DNA from: Candidatus Thiothrix anitrata
GTDB taxonomy: Bacteria; Pseudomonadota; Gammaproteobacteria; Thiotrichales; Thiotrichaceae
Reading direction: 5' to 3'
Length of the DNA stretch: 64,000 nucleotides
Assembly: GCF_017901155.1 (NCBI RefSeq)
Contig: NZ_CP072800.1
Span: forward strand, 2,135,283-2,199,282
Below, piece after piece: positions 4,016 to 60,105 of the stretch. The first letter of the stretch is position 1; each line of letters opens with the position of its first letter. Both the position numbers and the translations under genes were made by a program. The notes beneath the pieces were generated by a model that had not been told where the DNA came from, did no database searches, and worked only from the letters and a program-made list of their open reading frames with translations.

Positions 4016-4327
4016 ATGGAAATGTCGAAAAGCTTATTTTATACAGCTAGTTCAGTTGCTGTGTCGATCGGGATGATGCTGAGTTCAACTGCGAATGCGG
4101 GTTCATACTATCATTCTCACCATCAACACCGTCCGGTTCATAAACCTTGCTCACAACTAAAGCACGAATTAACGGCTAAAGTTCATCGGTTGCGCCATAT
4201 GGCGCGGGAGCGTGAGTACCACTATGGGGATGCCTATGGTGCGCGGCGTTTGCGCAATACTGCAAATATTATCACTGCTCATATCGGTAATTTACCTTGT
4301 GTTAACAAGCAAACATGTCTGTCGTGA
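4016..4327 (+). CDS. Small secreted His-rich protein of unknown function
   Basis: A 103-residue protein with a signal peptide: basic start, hydrophobic stretch, and likely cleavage after 'STANA'. The mature N-terminus is His/Tyr-rich ('YYHSHHQHRP'), and the rest is basic and helical with four Cys in total (CSQ, PCVN, TCLS region), suggesting periplasmic location and possible disulphides or metal binding. AAAGGAG at 4001-4007 gives a strong ribosome site 8 bases before the ATG. A hairpin terminator follows, so it is probably expressed on its own. I do not recognise the family. Confidence 0.75.
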   Translation: MEMSKSLFYTASSVAVSIGMMLSSTANAGSYYHSHHQHRPVHKPCSQLKHELTAKVHRLRHMAREREYHYGDAYGARRLRNTANIITAHIGNLPCVNKQTCLS

Positions 4328-4357
4328 TTGAATAAATATACCCTTAAACGACGGCTT

Positions 4358-4390
4358 GCCAGCGTGGTCAATGTTGTCCTCGCTGGCTTT
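4358..4390 (+). terminator. Probable terminator after the small secreted protein
   Basis: GCCAGCG (4358-4364) pairs with CGCTGGC (4381-4387) across a 16-base loop and is followed by TTTCT. Confidence 0.5.
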
Positions 4391-4478
4391 CTAGCTTAAG
4401 CACTTGCGTTCCTACGGTTTTTTTCAATGCTGCGCCGCGTTACACTACGCATCTTTGCACAAGAGCATTCATACCGTC

Positions 4479-7400
4479 ATGACAGCCATGCACCCGATTC
4501 GGGAAATTCCTTACAACTATACGTCGTTTTCTGATAAAGAAATTGTCCAGCGTCTGCTTGGGACGCGGGCGTGGGAAATTCTGCAAGCCCTGCGTGAAAA
4601 GCGCGAAACCGGCATTTCCTCGCATATGCTGCTGGAAATCCTTGGTGATATGTGGATTGTACAGCGTAATCCCTACATTCACGACGATTTGCTCGAAAAT
4701 CGCGAACGCCGTCAGTCGTTGCTCGACACTCTCAATGGACGAATTGCCAAGATTGAGGAACGCGCCAAAGGCAATGCCCTGACGCTGGAAATGATGCAGA
4801 TTGCACGTGCTGCGTTGGACAAGTTTGCCGAGGATTTCCGTGCCGAATACGACTTGCGCGAAAAAACCCGCAAACGTCTGCAAAAAATTACCCGTAAAGA
4901 CAATATCCAGTTTGATGGGCTGGCTCGCGTGTCGCACGTCACTGATGCTACTGACTGGCGGGTGGAATTACCCTTTGTGGTGCTGACCCCTGATACCGAA
5001 GAGGAAATGGCGGCACTGGTCGGCGAGTGTATTGCCCTAGGTTTGACAGTGATTCCAAGGGGGGGGGGCACTGGCTATACCGGTGGGGCAGTTCCGTTGG
5101 ATGCATGTAGTGCAGTTATTAATACCGAAAAACTCGAATTTATCAGTGAAGTCCAGCACCGTAATGATTTGCCGGGGGTGGATAAGAGTGTTGCGGTGGT
5201 GCGTACCGGTGCAGGCGTGATTACCCGCCGGGTTTCGGATCTGGCTGGCCAGCATGGGCTGGTGTTTGCGGTAGATCCAACGTCGCAGGACGCTTCCACC
5301 ATTGGTGGCAATATCGCGATGAATGCGGGCGGTAAAAAAGCAGTGTTGTGGGGAACAACGCTGGATAACTTGTTGTCATGGCGCATGGTTACACCGGATG
5401 CCGACTGGCTGGAAGTTACCCGTTTGAACCACAATCTCGGCAAGATCCATGATCAGCCGACCGTACAATTTTCGGTGCAACAGTTTCAGGCGGATGGTAA
5501 AACCCACAAGGGTGAGCCAGAAATTCTCACCTTTGAGGGGCGTTATTTCCGTAAGGAGGGTTTGGGTAAGGATGTCACTAACAAGTTCCTCGGTGGTTTG
5601 CCGGGTGTGCAGAAAGAGGGCTGTGACGGGCTGATTACCTCTGGCGAATTTATCCTGCACCGGATGCCGGATCAAATTCGCACGGTTTGCCTTGAGTTCT
5701 ACGGCACGGATTTGCACGAAGCCGTCCCCGCCATTGTGGAGGTGAAAAACTACCTCGACGGGCGCAATGATGTGCTGCTTTCAGGTCTTGAACATCTCGA
5801 CGAACGCTATGTCAAGGCGGTGAAATACACCCCGAAAGGCGCACGCGGTATGTTGCCGAAAATGGTGTTGATTGCTGATATTGTCAGTGATAACGAAAAA
5901 GCCGTAGCTGAATCGGCTGCTGAAGTGGTGCGACTTGCCAATGCCCGTAATGCTGAAGGTTTCGTTGCGATCAGCCCGGAAGCACGTCGCCAGTTCTGGG
6001 CTGATCGTTCACGCACGGCGGCGATTGCGGCTCACACCAACGCTTTCAAAGTCAACGAAGACGTGGTGATTCCGCTGCACAACTTGGCGCGTTACACCGA
6101 AGGTATTGAAACCATCAATATCCGCCAGTCGATGCAGAACAAGTTGCGCATAATCGACGCATTGCTGGAGCATTTGGCAGGTGATTTGCCGGAATTGCGC
6201 ACGGTGGCTGATTATGAAGCCAGTGAGGAGCGCAGCGCGATTGTTGCCAACAAGGTGGCGCACGCTACTGCTTTCTTGCAACAGCGTAAAACCCGCTGGG
6301 AACAGATTCTAGGCTTGTTCAATGTGTCTGCTGCCGATCATCAGGATTTGCTGGATGAGACCGCACTGGCAGCACAACGCCCGCACCGATCGGGTGATTG
6401 ATTTGCTGTTGCGGCGTGATTTGCGGATTTCCTACCGCGCGGAAGTGGTACGCCCGTTACAGGATATGTTTCGTGGGCGCGAACTGGAGCCGTTGTTGCA
6501 GTCTTTGGAAGGTATTCATCGGCGCATCCGTTCCAGGCGCTTGTTTGTGGCTTTGCACATGCACGCGGGTGATGGCAATGTGCATACCAACATTCCGGTG
6601 AATTCCAATGATTATGAGATGCTGCACGAAGCCGAGCGCGTAGTGGATGCAGATTATGGTGCTGGCGCGTGACTTGGATGGGGTGATTTCTGGCGAACAC
6701 GGTATTGGTTTAACCAAATACCGCTATCTCGATGCAGCGTGAAATCGACGAATTCGCCACTTACAAGCAGCGAGGTTGACCCGCAAGGGCATTTCAATAA
6801 GGGTAAATTGATGCCCGGTTCGGGTTTGCAGCAACGCTTACACCCCGTCATTGCGTTTGGTGGAACGCGAAGCTTTGTTGCTCGAACACAATGAGCTGGG
6901 CGCGTTGAATACCGATATCAAGGACTGTCTGCGCTGCGGTAAGTGCAAGCCGGTGTGCAATACACATATTCCGCGTGCTAATCTTGCTGTATTCGCCACG
7001 TAATAAGATTCTGGCAACAGGCTTGATGATCGAGGCGTTTCTGTACGAAGAACAAACCCGCGCGGCGTTTCGATTCGCCATTTCGATGAAATGAACGATG
7101 TCGCGGATCATTGCACGGTTTGCCATAAATGCTTTAATCCGTGCCCGGTGAATATTGATTTCGGCAATGTCTCCATGCGGATGCGCAGTATTTTGCTGGA
7201 GCGCGGTAAGAAAAAGACCAGTCCGGTGACGTGGGCATCCATGCAGTTTCTCAATATGAAAGACCGGATACCGATCAAAATCATGCGGATCGGGATGATT
7301 CAATTCGGGTTTACTGCGCAACGTTGGGCGCATAAGTTGGCGAAAAAAGCCGGAATTTTGGGTGATAATAAACGCCCCGCTTCAACTTTAGGCAAACCAC

Positions 7401-51056: not shown

Positions 51057-51842
51057 TCATAACGAACGTGCCACGCGGAAGCCACGGAAGATCTGGCGAC
51101 CGCTGGCATAATCCTTGACCCGATAGGCTGCGCGTAAATAGCGCGGTCTGTCGTTCCAAGAACCGCCACGTAGCACCCGCTCGTGGCAGTTACCATCTTC
51201 CTCCCAAGGTTGTGCGCTCATCGGTGCGCCCTGATAGGAATCGTGCCAGCAATCTTGCACCCACTCCCATACATTACCCACCATATCGTGCAGGCCAAAA
51301 GCATTGGGCGGGTATTGCCATACGGGGCTGGTCATGCCGACTTGCATCGCGTAATTTGCGTATTGTTTGTCCGCGCTATTGCCCCAAGGGTAGGCACTGG
51401 GGCGGCTAGCACGTGCACTGTATTCCCACTCCGCCTCGGAAGGTAGCCGATAACTGCGTCCATCCATCTGGCTAAGCCACTGGCAATACGCTTGTGCATC
51501 TTCCCAACTGACGTTAATGACCGGACGGCTGCCACGCCCCCAGCCCGCATCATCGGGTAACGGTGTGTAAGTGGCGAGGCAAAACGCATCGTATTCTTCA
51601 AAGGTGACCGGGTATTTACCCAGCTCAAACGCGGGAATATACAGGGTGCGCGGCGGGCGTTCGTGTGCTTGATTGCCGCCTTCCACGTCGTCGCGTCCTT
51701 CTTGCGCACCCATCAGGAAACGTCCGGGGGGAATAGTCACCATTTTGGGAAAATTCCACTCGTGCGCGTGTTCACGCAAGTACACTTGGTGGCGTTGTTG
51801 CTGCGCGTGCATTTCCACCGGAGGTTTTAGCTCGGTATACAT
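51057..51842 (-). CDS. FGE-sulfatase (SUMF1-like) C-type-lectin-fold protein without catalytic Cys
   Basis: A 261-residue protein of the formylglycine-generating-enzyme family, without a signal peptide. 'MVTIPPGRFLMGAQEGRDDVEGG', 'VTFEEYDAFCLAT', 'PVINVSWEDAQAYCQWLSQ', 'YRLPSEAEWEYSARA', 'NAFGLHDMVGNVWEWVQDCW' and 'RGGSWNDRPRYLRAAYRV' are family blocks. At the position where active FGE has a Cys (GFRCA) this protein has 'GFRVARS', so sulfatase activation is unlikely. The C-terminal block has the layout seen in FGE-type targets of diversity-generating retroelements. Convergent with the hydrolase gene, with 3 bases between stops. Confidence 0.85.
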   Translation of the reverse strand: MYTELKPPVEMHAQQQRHQVYLREHAHEWNFPKMVTIPPGRFLMGAQEGRDDVEGGNQAHERPPRTLYIPAFELGKYPVTFEEYDAFCLATYTPLPDDAGWGRGSRPVINVSWEDAQAYCQWLSQMDGRSYRLPSEAEWEYSARASRPSAYPWGNSADKQYANYAMQVGMTSPVWQYPPNAFGLHDMVGNVWEWVQDCWHDSYQGAPMSAQPWEEDGNCHERVLRGGSWNDRPRYLRAAYRVKDYASGRQIFRGFRVARSL

Positions 51843-54193: not shown

Positions 54194-54212
54194 TCAGTGT
54201 GCGCTGAATGTT

Positions 54213-54616: not shown

Positions 54617-57600
54617 ATGCGGGTACAATGGCGCTGGTTCGGCTTAGGGAGGCAGCATTTCTTCTTGTCGTTATGCTTCGTGTTAGTGGTGCTGATTTCT
54701 CGTGCGGAAGCTGCGGATGCTTCCCATGCTGCCCGACTTGTGACGGTGGCTGACTACCAAATTGGGGTGGATGGCTTGCCATCGTCAGTACCTGCTAGGC
54801 AGTTGGGTGCTGCCGTACAGCAACCTGATGTTCAGATTAAGCGGGAGTTGGTCTCCTTATATGGAGGTGAGCATGGGGCAAGTATCCCGTCACGCGGCTA
54901 CCTGAGTGATGTCATCTGGGGTGAGCAAATTGTTTATCCGGCTGAAACGGTGGGCAACAGATCTGCGGCTGTAATGTCGGGCAACGCCCTTTCTAGTGCC
55001 GAACGTATTATTTATTACGGTTTTAACATCGGTCAATGGAAATGGCGGTTGGATTCTGAAACTACAGTTCTTACCCGCGCCTTTATGACTCAACCGTTGC
55101 TGGTATTTTTACAGGATGTGGACAAGGTGAAAATTGCGGGGCAGATGGTCAATTCCCCTTTCTTTGCGCAGGCGCTTGCAGAGCATAAAAAATATGTCCT
55201 TGACCCGTTATGGACAAACAACACTGTGTTGGATGATTTGCTGGAAGGGTTGGGCGAGTACGGGGTTTCCCAGTTGACGGAGGTTCAAAAACTAGGTGGT
55301 GCGCAGGCATTTAATACCCGTCTTGCTCAGCCTGAAATTACCGCAGCACTGCAATCCACGCAACCAGGAATCAACTTTGCCGACAAAAGTAAGACCTTTG
55401 AAATTTTTAAGGGCATGAGTGTGTCCGGTAGCCGGGAAATCACGACCCAAAAAGAGCAAATGGATTTTACCAGTTATTCTACGCTGACCTATGGGGTACA
55501 GGAGGTCGTAAACTTTGAGAATATCAGCGGTGGCTTCTGGGATAATGTTGACCGACACTTTTTCAAAGTGCCATTGCTTAAGCCCGTCACGGGTTGGTTA
55601 GACAAAGATTTAGTCAAAAAAACAACGCTTGGTATTTCTAAAATTCCGGTGCTGCAAACAGTGGGTGGTTCTGCCCAAGTAGCCTTATTCCGCAATAACC
55701 CCTATACACCGTATGATGCCCCGATGGCAATGAATCTCGTGACGGCAGCAGCAGTCACTGCGGAAGTGGTGGGGACGGCAGCAGCGGTATTTAAACCGGA
55801 ATTGATTAACACCCTGATGACGGAGGTCAAGGCATTTTCAGACAAGGCACAGCCCTACGTTGAATGGACGGCACTCATCTATTCAGTTGCTAAATCTGGT
55901 CAAGATTTACTGTGTACGGCTGCGGATGCGAAGGAGGGTATTTGTGGCGACTATTTCAAGAAAATAGACAAGCTCATGAAACTGGTGCCAAGTGGGGTAA
56001 TTGATTCGGTACAAGGTGCATTGAAAGCAGGTGAAGCAAGCAAGCCGTTTGATGAAAATACATTTTGTGGCACAGCCATTTTGGCTGGGCGTTTTACCGG
56101 AAATGTCCGCAAGACCCCGATGGACAAGAGGAGCAATAACACCAAGCTTGCCGTTTGTGCATTCAATGAGCTTATAACCAAGCCTATCATCAGTAACATA
56201 AAGGACTATCTCCCCACAACCTATGGGAGGATAAAAGATGTCAAGTCTATTAAACTGACAGCCGACTTTTTCAAACGGGCAGGGTGGAAAATCAATGTAA
56301 CGGGAGTTCCTGCTGATATAAGGTTGGAATCACTGGTGGCACAGCTTGCAACCACCAAGGTGGGCATTAAGGATTCCCTTAAAGTGCTGTCAGGGGTGAT
56401 GGATGTCAGTAACGGTACGCTGGAATTCACCCGCGCTGTTATGGATGGCAAAGTACAAATGTTACCGTTGCTTATACAATTGCGCGATGCCTTAATGGAT
56501 TATCTTGAGGAAAATGGAAATGCTTATGCCTCTGCCGCATTATACGATGTATTCAAAGCATTGACCCCCGCAAAGTATGTGCAACTTGCGTATGCGGCGG
56601 GGAATAAAGGTACAGCTTTAGCATGGGATTGGATGACTGACCCGTCGGTGGTTAAACTGGCAATGAGACGCAGAACGAAGAATGCTTTGGACATCAGTTA
56701 CCAGATACCGGAAATGAGGGCTGTCCGTTATCTGAAAGTCCCCTTTAATGATAAAAAAATGGTTAGCCATACCCTGACAGGCACTTATTACCGTGGCAAG
56801 GATGATAGCTATATTTATCCCGTTGCGAATGATAAGGGGTCTAATAACCTACTGGTCATGCCAGGGTTTTCTGCCAGTATCGAAAATCAGAGTGTTTTTG
56901 ATGTGGTCGATAAGGGAACTATCAAGCAACTATTGGCTAAAGGTAATGTGAATTTATTGCTTGATGTTATAAAGTTTAATAGTTCATCTGAGGTGAGGGA
57001 CGTACCATCAACTGAGCGTAAGCAAGGCGACTATCGGTATTTCACAACAACAGTCCAAGATAGTTTTTTTCCATGGTGGAATCCGATTGTTGGTCTTGAT
57101 GCACAGGATGTACTTAACCAGAAAATATTTGGTAAAGATATGAGCAAATATCAGGCTATTGATTTCACTGAAATCTATCTGAACCAACTCAAGGGTAAAG
57201 CGAACTTCACCTTAAGGCACAAAACGTCGGGGATTTATTCGGATTACACCCATATTGCTTTTAAAAGTGGTGCGAATGAAAAATTGTTTGCCAATACTTT
57301 TAGTGTGTATGTGCTGAATAATCTAAAAGCGTGGGCGACAAGCTTGAATAAATCTTCACTCGTTTACCGTGAGCAAAAATCGGGGAGCTTTACGGGAGTT
57401 GGTGAGGTTCAACTGAAATTCAATAAAGATGTAACTTGGAGTGGAGTTGGCAATAACGGCCTTTGGGCTGTCTGGCATACTGTCCAAAACGGTAAGTATG
57501 TGTGGTCTGACCCAGTGTCACTCGGTTCTATTTTGGGTGGGGAGACAAAGGTGTTAGCCTTCCCGCCGGGTATTGATGTTAAGACATCTGAGCTGGTAGT

Positions 57601-59311
57601 TTATGATGATATTCTGAGTGGTTACCTTGCACGCTCTAAAGTCAGCAGAAGTCAAGTATTAAATAATCTTGTTTCGGCCACTTATTATAGCCAATATCCA
57701 CTGATTCGTGTGCCATTGCCCAGTTTGGCTTCAACGAATAGTTCACTATTGAAACCTATTGATACTGATAAGGACGGTGTGCCTGATTATCTGGATGCCT
57801 TCAAAAGTGACCCCAAGTGGGCATATGATACGGACAAGGACGGGATGCCGGATGGGTGGGAAATCCAATACGGGTTGAACATTTATGGCCCAGCCGATGC
57901 GGTAAAGGATAAGGATGGCGATGGTTACAGCAATCTATACGAGTTTAAAAGCAACACCAGTCCTGCTGATAAAAACAGCAAGCCAGTCCCGGTCATCGCC
58001 AAAATAGTCCCGCTTACCGGAAAGGTGGGGCAGACTGTTACGCTCAACGTGTCCGGCAGCAATCTACCCTCTACCATCGTGGCGAACATTGCCAAGCAGA
58101 CGGTGGGTTGCTCCACGGCTACGAAATCAGCCACCGCTGCGACCTTCACCTGTCCACTGAGTGTGGTAGGCAGCCAAACCTTGGCGGTCAAAACCAACAC
58201 GCAGGCAAACGGCGGCACGGTTATTAGCGGCGGTACGGCTACGTTCGTGGTGTCTCCAGCTCTTACCGCCCCAAAAAACCTTAAAACTATCCCCGGCACT
58301 AGCAAGGTTACGCTTTCTTGGGATGCTGTTACTGGGGCAGTAGGATATGGCATTTGCCGTGCTACAGTCAGCATCACCGATGTTGGCAAGTGCGCATCTT
58401 ACGCAGGCGGGGCGTGGACAGGAGCAACGAATACACAGACAGAATTGTCAGGCTTGGTGAATGGTACGAAATACTATTTTCGGGTAATCGCTTTGGATGC
58501 AAAGGGAAACAAAAGTTCCGCTAGTGCCGAAGTCACCGCTACCCCACAAAAAATAGTCGGCGTAACCAGCAAACTCAACGACACCGGCATCACCACTTGC
58601 AGTAACAGCACTCAAAACGGTCAGCCCTGCCCACTGCTGACCCATCCGAGGCAAGACGCTGATCACGGGCGCGATGTTACCCATAATGACAATAGCGATG
58701 GTCATGCGGGTTTCAGCTTCACCAAAATCGGTGCGAATGGCGAAACTTTGCCTAACAGTGCTACCGATTGGTATTGTGTTAAGGATAATGTCACCGGGTT
58801 AATATGGGAAATCAAACAAGGCACCCCGAATAATGTAAAGGGTGATTCCGGTCTGCATGATCCCGATGATACTTTTACTTGGTACGAGCCTGATAACACC
58901 AAAAATGGTGGCAATGCGGGTGATCCCGCCGGTATTCCGGGTTCGATAAATGTTAATTATGGAAAAACTTGCTACGGACATGATCACAAGACTGTCGCTA
59001 CTTGGTGCAATACTAAAGCCTATGTTGACCGAGTGAACACCGATGGCTTGTGTGGGGCGAAGGATTGGCGGCTGCCGAGTAAAGAGGAACTGCTTTCCAT
59101 CGTCAGTTATGATCGTGATAATCCGGCGATTGATACAGATTGGTTCCCGGATACACCGTCCGAGTCGCCTGCGTTGTTTTGGTCAATATCTTCCTATGCC
59201 TATTATTATTTTGATTACTACGCTTGGCGTGTTGACTTTGGAGGCGGTGGTGCCAGCTCGTATTTTAAGAGTAGTGGTAGTCGAGTCCGTTTAGTTCGTA
59301 GCCTACAGTGA
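54617..59311 (+). CDS. Large secreted protein: unknown N-terminal region, Ca-binding repeats, FN3, C-terminal DUF1566
   Basis: 1564 residues. A signal peptide ends near 'ISRAEAADA'. The first ~1030 residues match nothing I recognise. They are followed by thrombospondin-type-3/calcium repeats ('DTDKDGVPDYLDAF', 'DTDKDGMPDGWEIQYG', 'DKDGDGYSNLYEF'), an Ig/IPT-like stretch ('KIVPLTGKVGQTVTLNVSG'), a fibronectin type III domain ('APKNLKTIPGTSKVTLSWDA'), and a DUF1566/Lcl C-type-lectin-like domain ('DNVTGLIWEIKQG', 'DWRLPSKEELLSIV', 'RVRLVRS'). The protein is probably cell-surface bound or secreted. ATG 54617 is preferred because AGGTGG precedes it. The C-terminus has features of a retroelement-diversified variable region. 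Confidence 0.8.
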   Translation: MRVQWRWFGLGRQHFFLSLCFVLVVLISRAEAADASHAARLVTVADYQIGVDGLPSSVPARQLGAAVQQPDVQIKRELVSLYGGEHGASIPSRGYLSDVIWGEQIVYPAETVGNRSAAVMSGNALSSAERIIYYGFNIGQWKWRLDSETTVLTRAFMTQPLLVFLQDVDKVKIAGQMVNSPFFAQALAEHKKYVLDPLWTNNTVLDDLLEGLGEYGVSQLTEVQKLGGAQAFNTRLAQPEITAALQSTQPGINFADKSKTFEIFKGMSVSGSREITTQKEQMDFTSYSTLTYGVQEVVNFENISGGFWDNVDRHFFKVPLLKPVTGWLDKDLVKKTTLGISKIPVLQTVGGSAQVALFRNNPYTPYDAPMAMNLVTAAAVTAEVVGTAAAVFKPELINTLMTEVKAFSDKAQPYVEWTALIYSVAKSGQDLLCTAADAKEGICGDYFKKIDKLMKLVPSGVIDSVQGALKAGEASKPFDENTFCGTAILAGRFTGNVRKTPMDKRSNNTKLAVCAFNELITKPIISNIKDYLPTTYGRIKDVKSIKLTADFFKRAGWKINVTGVPADIRLESLVAQLATTKVGIKDSLKVLSGVMDVSNGTLEFTRAVMDGKVQMLPLLIQLRDALMDYLEENGNAYASAALYDVFKALTPAKYVQLAYAAGNKGTALAWDWMTDPSVVKLAMRRRTKNALDISYQIPEMRAVRYLKVPFNDKKMVSHTLTGTYYRGKDDSYIYPVANDKGSNNLLVMPGFSASIENQSVFDVVDKGTIKQLLAKGNVNLLLDVIKFNSSSEVRDVPSTERKQGDYRYFTTTVQDSFFPWWNPIVGLDAQDVLNQKIFGKDMSKYQAIDFTEIYLNQLKGKANFTLRHKTSGIYSDYTHIAFKSGANEKLFANTFSVYVLNNLKAWATSLNKSSLVYREQKSGSFTGVGEVQLKFNKDVTWSGVGNNGLWAVWHTVQNGKYVWSDPVSLGSILGGETKVLAFPPGIDVKTSELVVYDDILSGYLARSKVSRSQVLNNLVSATYYSQYPLIRVPLPSLASTNSSLLKPIDTDKDGVPDYLDAFKSDPKWAYDTDKDGMPDGWEIQYGLNIYGPADAVKDKDGDGYSNLYEFKSNTSPADKNSKPVPVIAKIVPLTGKVGQTVTLNVSGSNLPSTIVANIAKQTVGCSTATKSATAATFTCPLSVVGSQTLAVKTNTQANGGTVISGGTATFVVSPALTAPKNLKTIPGTSKVTLSWDAVTGAVGYGICRATVSITDVGKCASYAGGAWTGATNTQTELSGLVNGTKYYFRVIALDAKGNKSSASAEVTATPQKIVGVTSKLNDTGITTCSNSTQNGQPCPLLTHPRQDADHGRDVTHNDNSDGHAGFSFTKIGANGETLPNSATDWYCVKDNVTGLIWEIKQGTPNNVKGDSGLHDPDDTFTWYEPDNTKNGGNAGDPAGIPGSINVNYGKTCYGHDHKTVATWCNTKAYVDRVNTDGLCGAKDWRLPSKEELLSIVSYDRDNPAIDTDWFPDTPSESPALFWSISSYAYYYFDYYAWRVDFGGGGASSYFKSSGSRVRLVRSLQ
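59177..59311 (+). other. Variable-region-like 3' end (DUF1566 domain, first copy)
   Basis: From the 'FWS' codons to the stop. By my count 27 of 31 codons between the first Ser and the constant tail end in T or C, with runs of Tyr, Phe, Asp, Gly and Ser. The tail 'RVRLVRSLQ' is shared with the next gene, and similarity continues past the stop (TGATTTT). Confidence 0.4.
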
Positions 59312-59414
59312 TTTTGTCTTTTGGTTGTTTATCATGCAGCGGCATTATGCAGAGAAGATATATGTTCATCTGATATGACATCAAATGTCTGTTGCTATAA
59401 GTGGAGCAGGCGGT

Positions 59415-59443
59415 TTGACACTTTCTCGTTACTTGTGTGTAGT
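59415..59443 (+). promoter_or_regulatory. Sigma-70 promoter for the small DUF1566 gene
   Basis: Perfect TTGACA (59415-59420), a 17-base spacer, and TGTAGT (59438-59443, 4 of 6), 34 bases upstream of the ATG. Confidence 0.55.
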
Positions 59444-59476
59444 TTACTGATTAGTATTTCAATCTGGAGTAGAGTT

Positions 59477-60007
59477 ATGCCTAACCCAATTCAAACAGTA
59501 TTATTAAGTTATCTGTTGGCAGTATTACCTCTGATAGCTAACGCTCAGACTTGTCAATCTAACACCATCCCTGCTTCAACACGTCACCTTATTATTAATA
59601 ACAACAATGGCACGGTAACGGACAATAAAACCGGTTTGATGTGGAAGCAGTGCATCGAGGGGCAGGATCCGTTTACATGTAGTGGTAATGCTGGTGAGTT
59701 CAATTGGGAGGAAGCCCTACGACATGCAGATGATGTTAATAACGGACTAGCAGGAAATAACGTTGGCTATACCGACTGGCGTCTGCCTAATATCAAAGAG
59801 CTAGATTCTATTATTGAAGGGCAATGTGTTGAGCCAGCCATTAATGCGTTGGCATTCCCGAATACGCTATCTGAATGGTTCTGGTCGGCATCTCCTTTTG
59901 CCTCTAATACTAGGAGCGCATGGGGTGTTAACTTTTATTACGGTCACAACGGTGCGGCTCGTAAATATTATGATTATCGAATTCGTTTAGTACGTAGCGT
60001 ACAGTGA
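59477..60007 (+). CDS. Secreted DUF1566 (Lcl C-type-lectin-like) protein
   Basis: 176 residues. Signal peptide 'MPNPIQTVLLSYLLAVLPLIANA', then a single DUF1566 domain: 'NNGTVTDNKTGLMWKQC', 'FNWEEALRHADDVNN', 'YTDWRLPNIKELDSIIEG' and 'LVRSVQ'. GGAG 7 bases upstream fixes the start. Its C-terminus aligns with that of the preceding large protein: scaffold residues (FWS, AW, V-x-F, RLVRS) are kept while the residues between differ almost completely. Likely a surface ligand-binding protein. Confidence 0.85.
   Translation: MPNPIQTVLLSYLLAVLPLIANAQTCQSNTIPASTRHLIINNNNGTVTDNKTGLMWKQCIEGQDPFTCSGNAGEFNWEEALRHADDVNNGLAGNNVGYTDWRLPNIKELDSIIEGQCVEPAINALAFPNTLSEWFWSASPFASNTRSAWGVNFYYGHNGAARKYYDYRIRLVRSVQ
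59879..60007 (+). other. Variable-region-like 3' end (DUF1566 domain, second copy)
   Basis: From the 'FWS' codons to the stop. About 24 of 29 codons end in T or C and include Tyr, His, Asn, Ser and Asp at putative ligand-facing positions. It ends with the same constant block and TGATTTT as 59177-59311. Confidence 0.4.
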
Positions 60008-60105
60008 TTTTACTGTTGGGCTTTGGCTGCCTCAGATTTCGGGATGGCTGGCTCGTGCCCATTGTCCCAGCGTGGGCGAAGGCAACAGCCGTGCTGTACT
60101 CCCGG

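Follow-up and report, generated by a model that had tools for sequence, protein, structure and literature searches.

The two adjacent Lcl_C genes near the 3' end of the 64,000-nt stretch of the Candidatus Thiothrix anitrata contig NZ_CP072800.1 analyzed here (the window) very probably represent a fossil diversity-generating retroelement (DGR) whose target genes are orphaned and presumably frozen. An active DGR in this genome (G000; a single contig of 3,546,315 bases, rated 99.56% complete) was not supported. The sequence-only reading of the window had placed the responsible element elsewhere in the genome; our searches recovered neither a reverse transcriptase (RT) of the DGR type nor a template (TR), which speaks against an active element. 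The locus still reads as a former DGR because the family contains intact cassettes of the same kind and because a likely vestige of the accessory protein gene (Avd) lies between the two genes. G and L numbers below denote genomes and loci, respectively, and the comparison set comprised one genome per species.

Both genes lie on the forward strand. Gene 1 (54617..59311) encodes a 1564-aa protein and gene 2 (59477..60007) a 176-aa protein, and both proteins terminate in an Lcl_C (DUF1566) domain (Pfam, 1.9e-27 and 1.9e-35, respectively), which is described in excerpts of PMC4159848 and PMC6642488 as a common DGR target. Ahead of Lcl_C, gene 1 gave weaker fn3, TIG and TSP3-like matches, every one under the Pfam cut-off. 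The hydrophobic N-termini suggest that both proteins are secreted. The structure model of gene 2 showed a C-type lectin-like fold (pLDDT 85.7), and its nearest structure was the C-terminal domain of Legionella pneumophila Lcl (PDB 8q4e; Foldseek E=3e-5; Z 13.2 over 115 residues), a likeness of domain family and fold. Next among its matches were the DGR variable proteins TvpA (Z 9.4) and Mtd (Z 8.8), with unrelated C-type lectin-like proteins scoring as high as these two. By analogy, the variable residues may form the ligand face.

The two genes end in variable regions (VRs): VR1 (59177..59311, +) at the end of gene 1 and VR2 (59882..60007, +), which comprises the last 41 codons and the stop of gene 2. 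In agreement with the sequence-only reading, both gene ends keep the scaffold FWS, AW, VxF and RLVRS-x-Q, with TGATTTT across the stop, and differ in between. The tail from AW to the stop is equal in length in both genes, and gene 1 is two residues longer between FWS and AW. In our alignment, the template frame of G029, a genome from another genus of the same family (WSSSPNANNSNNAWNVNFNNGNDNANNKNNNRYVRLVRSGE), has 41 residues, as many as the end of gene 2; the length of VR1 matches this template from AW on.

A shared 3' module closes gene 1 (59288..59316, +) and gene 2 (59984..60012, +), and its core, CAGTGATTTTG at 59306-59316 and CAGTGATTTTA at 60002-60012, respectively, lies across the stop. 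This module, CG(T/G)TTAGT(T/C)CGT(A/T)(G/C)C...CAGTGATTTTG, was found at Lcl_C gene ends in the loci compared, at no fewer than 17 distinct sites, 14 of these 17 having at most 4 mismatches; it continues past the stop into the 3' flank, and the protein parts preceding it differ. The similarity beyond the stop codons that had been noticed earlier is thus part of a conserved site. A scan of public genomes for the exact module returned five loci, on two contigs of a Methylobacter metagenome-assembled genome (MAG), one uncultured Thiotrichaceae MAG contig (two loci) and one Methylococcaceae MAG, and a somewhat shorter module pattern was not found in viral contigs. The VRs of the window, of G029 and of G062, an uncultured Thiotrichaceae MAG from the family of the window's genome, all end in CAGTGATTTT, whereas the TRs of G062 and G029 read GAGTGA followed by a different flank. 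The G062 VRs read CAGTGATTTTG where the G062 TR has GAGTGAGAAATG and then enters the RT gene. Known DGRs carry a homing site (initiation of mutagenic homing, IMH) at the VR end, and by comparison with them the module is best read as such a site.

Three further observations concern this module. In G002, the start of an Lcl_C gene is fused to GGACAGTGATTTTGC (L219, 1251-1520), as if the gene body had been deleted and the homing site retained. A third copy of the 3' module on the minus strand of the Methylobacter locus L228 (site at 2064) is preceded by non-Lcl_C sequence. An inverted repeat, GTACG-TAG-CGTAC, lies at 59990-60002, just 5' of the gene 2 homing site; about one terminator-like site is expected here by chance.

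A stronger signature in the VRs than the C/T-ending codons considered below is position-specific divergence, with third codon positions kept and positions 1 and 2 varied. Third positions differed between gene 1 and gene 2 at 7/29 VR codons, compared with 45/63 aligned upstream codons (P=3e-5), and positions 1 and 2 of the VR differed at 25/58 sites. With the G029 template frame as the reference, residues at its 16 AAC/AAT codons were kept at none in gene 1 and two in gene 2, as against 14 and 17, respectively, at the other 25 codons (P=1.4e-4 and 1.0e-3). Other pairs with the module showed still fewer third-position differences: 0/42 in G007, 0/42 and 3/42 in the Methylobacter loci L228 and L227, 1/42 in L231 (UBA6146), 2/32 in G062 and 0/32 in G012. 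The third-position conservation in the window is intermediate, as expected if diversification ended long ago. The G007 genes are separate Lcl_C genes (L151 and L171) whose VRs differ at 25 sites, none of them a third position; one VR query found no Lcl_C template in the G007 assembly. G012 and G013 share a VR (126/126 bases equal), which is uninformative on freezing because the gene body is equally unchanged (773/774).

The sequence-only reading had also counted an excess of VR codons ending in C or T. This excess was confirmed at the template AAC/AAT codons (15/16 in each gene; 30/32 pooled, P=3e-6 against 0.56, the gene backgrounds being 0.55), but a control of 44 Lcl_C-like open reading frames (ORFs) picked by motif weakened its value. 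The mean excess over the ORF's own background was +0.17 in the 29 ORFs without a homing-site-like end and +0.39 in the 15 with one (P=1e-4), and the count is only partly diagnostic.

These data bear on whether the genes are ordinary paralogues, in which the shared tail would be the Lcl_C core, the divergence would lie in loops and the 3' similarity would stem from gene conversion or duplication. In favor of this explanation, a conserved RLVR core and an excess of C/T are likewise seen in Lcl_C ends that lack the homing site. However, it does not account for conservation that extends beyond the stop and includes third positions although positions 1 and 2 are variable. This pattern was not seen in five Lcl_C pairs lacking the full module in both genes; aligned over their last 59 codons, a span longer than the VRs, these pairs varied most at third positions, or as much there as elsewhere. 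Intact cassettes with TRs also exist in the family, and we consider ordinary paralogy very improbable. The proposal that the VRs are of the retroelement type is thus supported by third-position conservation, the putative homing site and the family cassettes.

The intact cassette of G062 (contig CALHAO010000391.1) reads, on one strand, big Lcl_C - TR - RT - Avd - small Lcl_C. Its big target is a frame of 572 codons that includes Lcl_C and a VR, its TR is adenine-rich and its RT (507 aa) has the motifs IGNLTSQ and YVDD. The Avd scored 48.6 bits with Pfam bAvd (above the cut-off of 40) and 50 bits with NCBIfam (below the cut-off of 80). In the best 60-nt windows, the TR differed from the two VRs at 16 adenine and 0 other positions and at 15 adenine and 0 other positions, respectively. 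This contig resembles the window in the order of big and small Lcl_C genes on one strand, in the VRs at both 3' ends, in the stop-spanning CAGTGATTTT and probably in having Avd sequence 5' of the small gene; it differs in carrying TR, RT and a full Avd between the genes, which in the window are separated by a spacer of only 165 nt that contains the likely Avd remnant. G029 and G037, which represent two other genera of the family, have the order TR - RT - small Lcl_C, the RT of G037 being split over two frames, and each showed 15 adenine and 0 other mismatches between TR and VR in the best 60-nt window. Inspection of their short contigs, made without a profile search, showed no Avd.

Partial cassettes were also found. 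In the congener G012, the interval between the big and small Lcl_C genes holds a TR (84% identity to the G062 TR) and the first 49 RT codons (73%), followed by other sequence and then the last part of Avd. At L228, a truncated Avd lies between the two genes. A query with the Lcl_C-type RT found nothing alike in the Methylobacter and UBA6146 MAGs; G063 gave one 24.5-bit match and G064 none. We interpret these loci as a decay series of one cassette kind, from the whole cassette of G062 through the partly eroded one of G012 and the Avd stump of the Methylobacter MAG to the Avd scrap of the window.

The spacer of the window (59312..59476, +) occupies the interval that holds TR, RT and Avd in G062. 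Within it, 59368..59424 (+) is likely a short remnant of an Avd gene, from its 5' end: the frame reads IxYDIKCLLLxVEQAVxHF, to be compared with DANRLLLEVEQAVRHF in the truncated Avd of L228 and IQRDMEILLLHLEQAVRSF in the Avd of G062. Its three in-frame stops preclude production of an Avd. The score of this stretch was reached by 0/1000 and 0/300 shuffles with the L228 stump and by 0/1000 and 1/300 shuffles with the G062 Avd, two of the four queries used. In a DNA comparison, an alignment of 59 nt between the window and L228 spacers scored 23 (the maximum of 500 shuffles being 13) and the G062 region scored 16 against the window spacer (shuffle maximum 14); two control spacers gave no match.

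The spacer of L227 matched the L228 Avd stump (0/300 shuffles), compared with 99/300 for the G062 Avd, and DNA matches to the window spacer reached 8/500 shuffles for L227 and 37/500 for L170. The leader at 59440-59479 matches L228 (0/500), with a control nearly as good (16/500). In pairs without the full homing site in both genes, Avd scans of short spacers (L152, L153 9495/10075, L164, L174, L183 and L208) scored 17-26; the L342 pair 3339/3940 scored 22 and 37, and long spacers reached up to 41 from length alone.

Several observations weigh against the fossil DGR explanation. When positions 1 and 2 are compared with position 3 inside the VR alone, the difference is not significant (P=0.10). 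Since G000 has no template, adenine specificity is deduced from the templates of other genomes, and these diverge from the window VRs at non-adenine sites too. The vestige has 19 codons only, and the Avds of BPP-1 (157/1000 shuffles) and L204 (161/1000) did not match it; neither an RT trace (277/300 shuffles) nor a TR trace was found in the spacer. The L152 pair has loose homing-site variants at both gene ends, CAGTAATTCT and CAGTAATTTTG, with no Avd trace and no third-position conservation. Finally, the genus commonly has big and small Lcl_C genes paired without any cassette, and the pairing alone shows little. We nevertheless regard the VRs of both window genes as being of the DGR type.

Our search for an engine in G000 retrieved three RTs with RVT_1, all of other classes: a CRISPR-associated RT (L001), an RT-Cas1 fusion (L002) and a UG13a defense RT (L003). 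No RT with the DGR motif ([I/V/L]GxxxSQ) was present; the best match to our DGR RT profile, built from BPP-1 brt and nine viral relatives, was the CRISPR RT (88 bits), and the Lcl_C-type RT query reached 23 bits. The same profile found DGR-like RTs of at least 139.8 bits in 7/16 congener genomes (G003 and G007-G012). Avd gave no Pfam bAvd match in G000 at E<=0.1, a search that did not extend to other accessory types (HRDC). Four DNA queries for a TR (VR1, a G007 VR, the G062 TR and the G029 TR; VR2 was not a query) returned Lcl_C gene ends or short chance matches only.

Two candidates in G000 were rejected. L001 (3098351-3101962 of its own genome), which consists of CRISPR repeats and a stand-alone RT, is not a DGR RT: direct repeats adjoin it, its motif is QGAILSP and the models that it matches are those for RT and type III Cas1/RT. 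VR1 also matched weakly (E=3.8) at 2284828, in a TIR-type gene about 6.5 kb from L003, and we took this as chance. L002 (3084531-3088100 of its own genome) encodes a 997-aa fusion. The loci L003 (586-2400, -) and L009 hold a UG13a-type RT (PADLOC 1.4e-230) with two TIR-like genes about 6.5 kb off.

The DGRs of congeners (G003, G009, G010, G011 and G012, with a TR also in G007) were considered as a source of the window VRs and rejected because their TR/VR pairs are in FGE-sulfatase-type genes, an assignment read from ORFs for G012 and G003 and judged by VR sequence for the rest. TR/VR-like pairs are also present at the RTs of L204/L205 (G003 and G008). In G008, a frame at L285 (minus strand, 4204-4821) fuses N-terminal DGR RT sequence with a template-like tail rich in asparagine, apparently the fossil of an FGE-type DGR after a deletion. 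Contigs C1 and C2 of G013 carry many near-identical RT copies.

These searches also constrain the possibility of ongoing trans diversification of the VRs, with the RT and TR residing on a replicon that the assembly lacks or being supplied now and then by a mobile DGR. Homing sites are retained in both genes, DGR loci of Thiohalocapsa are reported to act in trans (PMC10907252), and a plasmid could be missing from the single-contig assembly. Against this, the 3.55-Mb contig has no DGR-type RT and no TR, and the seven third-position differences in the VRs, compared with 0-3 in other homing-site pairs, suggest long inactivity. We therefore give ongoing diversification in trans little credence.

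The loss of the engine may also have occurred in another organism, the pair having arrived engine-less by horizontal transfer; this is a variant of the fossil DGR explanation with a different site of loss. A Methylobacter MAG contains comparable pairs that lack the engine, and one of them has a truncated Avd. Furthermore, for G015, the closest congener found by RpiA (100%), the alignment with the window stops at 54200 in the 18 kb compared, and the two Lcl_C matches of G015 lie elsewhere. However, gene 2 is just 51% identical to its Methylobacter relative, and no recent exchange between these two is shown. We consider such an arrival plausible, if on balance unlikely.

Returning to the fossil DGR as the best explanation, the original cassette would have read big Lcl_C (VR1 and homing site) - TR - RT - Avd - small Lcl_C (VR2 and homing site). 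Mutagenic retrohoming by DGRs is an established mechanism. At this locus, the RT would have randomized the adenine positions while copying an AAC/AAT-rich template, and the resulting cDNA would have replaced both gene ends (about the last 40 codons) up to the stop-spanning homing site. TR, RT and nearly all of Avd, which are absent from this assembly, would subsequently have disappeared, either from the window lineage or from a donor. Left as orphans, the VRs are most likely frozen, with one variant kept per protein and ordinary mutation eroding them, and both genes appear to persist as secreted C-type lectin-like proteins. A broader scheme, which we put forward as speculative and rather unlikely, is that homing-site Lcl_C pairs persist as a long-lived pool, surviving the engines that diversify them: DGRs would come and go, write a repertoire and be lost once useful variants are fixed, and the retained homing sites would leave the genes open to renewed trans diversification by an incoming DGR with a matching template.

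Other Lcl_C and target-type genes were noted in the same genome. G000 has six Lcl_C matches, and CAGTGATTTT closes three of these genes: gene 1, gene 2 and a gene at 3179636 (L210). Compared with its syntenic Lcl_C gene in G015 (L179), the latter has flanks of 95-97% identity, a gene identity of 74% and a 24-nt tail gap. A second pair of big and small Lcl_C genes (L208, 1974500-1979500) lacks the full homing site and any Avd trace. In the window, a gene on the minus strand at 51057-51842 encodes an FGE-sulfatase domain (Pfam 8.3e-59), the same family that is targeted by the DGRs of congeners.

The decay series suggests that hypervariable lectin genes are retained after loss of the diversifier. 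If lectin genes outlast their diversifier, the lifetime of programmed diversification is open to comparative study. Moreover, conserved third positions together with a stop-spanning homing site provide a DNA signature for orphan DGR targets that RT-first searches miss.

We found no open-access literature linking a diversity-generating retroelement with Thiothrix. The DGR of Bordetella phage BPP-1 (mtd-avd-TR-brt) is the reference for RT, Avd, TR and a C-type lectin variable protein, Mtd, which matches the fold of gene 2 (Z 8.8); it is phage-borne and whole, with a tail protein as its target, whereas the window has no RT or TR. Closer parallels are degenerate DGR loci, which are already known. 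In Thiohalocapsa PB-PSB1, as described in parts of PMC10907252, targets remain where key machinery is missing or pseudogenized; however, a complete locus of each class is present there and acts in trans, whereas no complete DGR of any class was found in G000. In cyanobacteria, according to passages of PMC7517822, C-type lectin variable proteins lie far from any RT with remnant TR-VR homology, and removal of the diversification components is suggested for these remote proteins; the bacteria and targets are different ones, and those passages mention no Avd vestige. Relative to these systems, the present comparison contributes a series of decay stages of a single Lcl_C cassette within a family, together with orphan target pairs.

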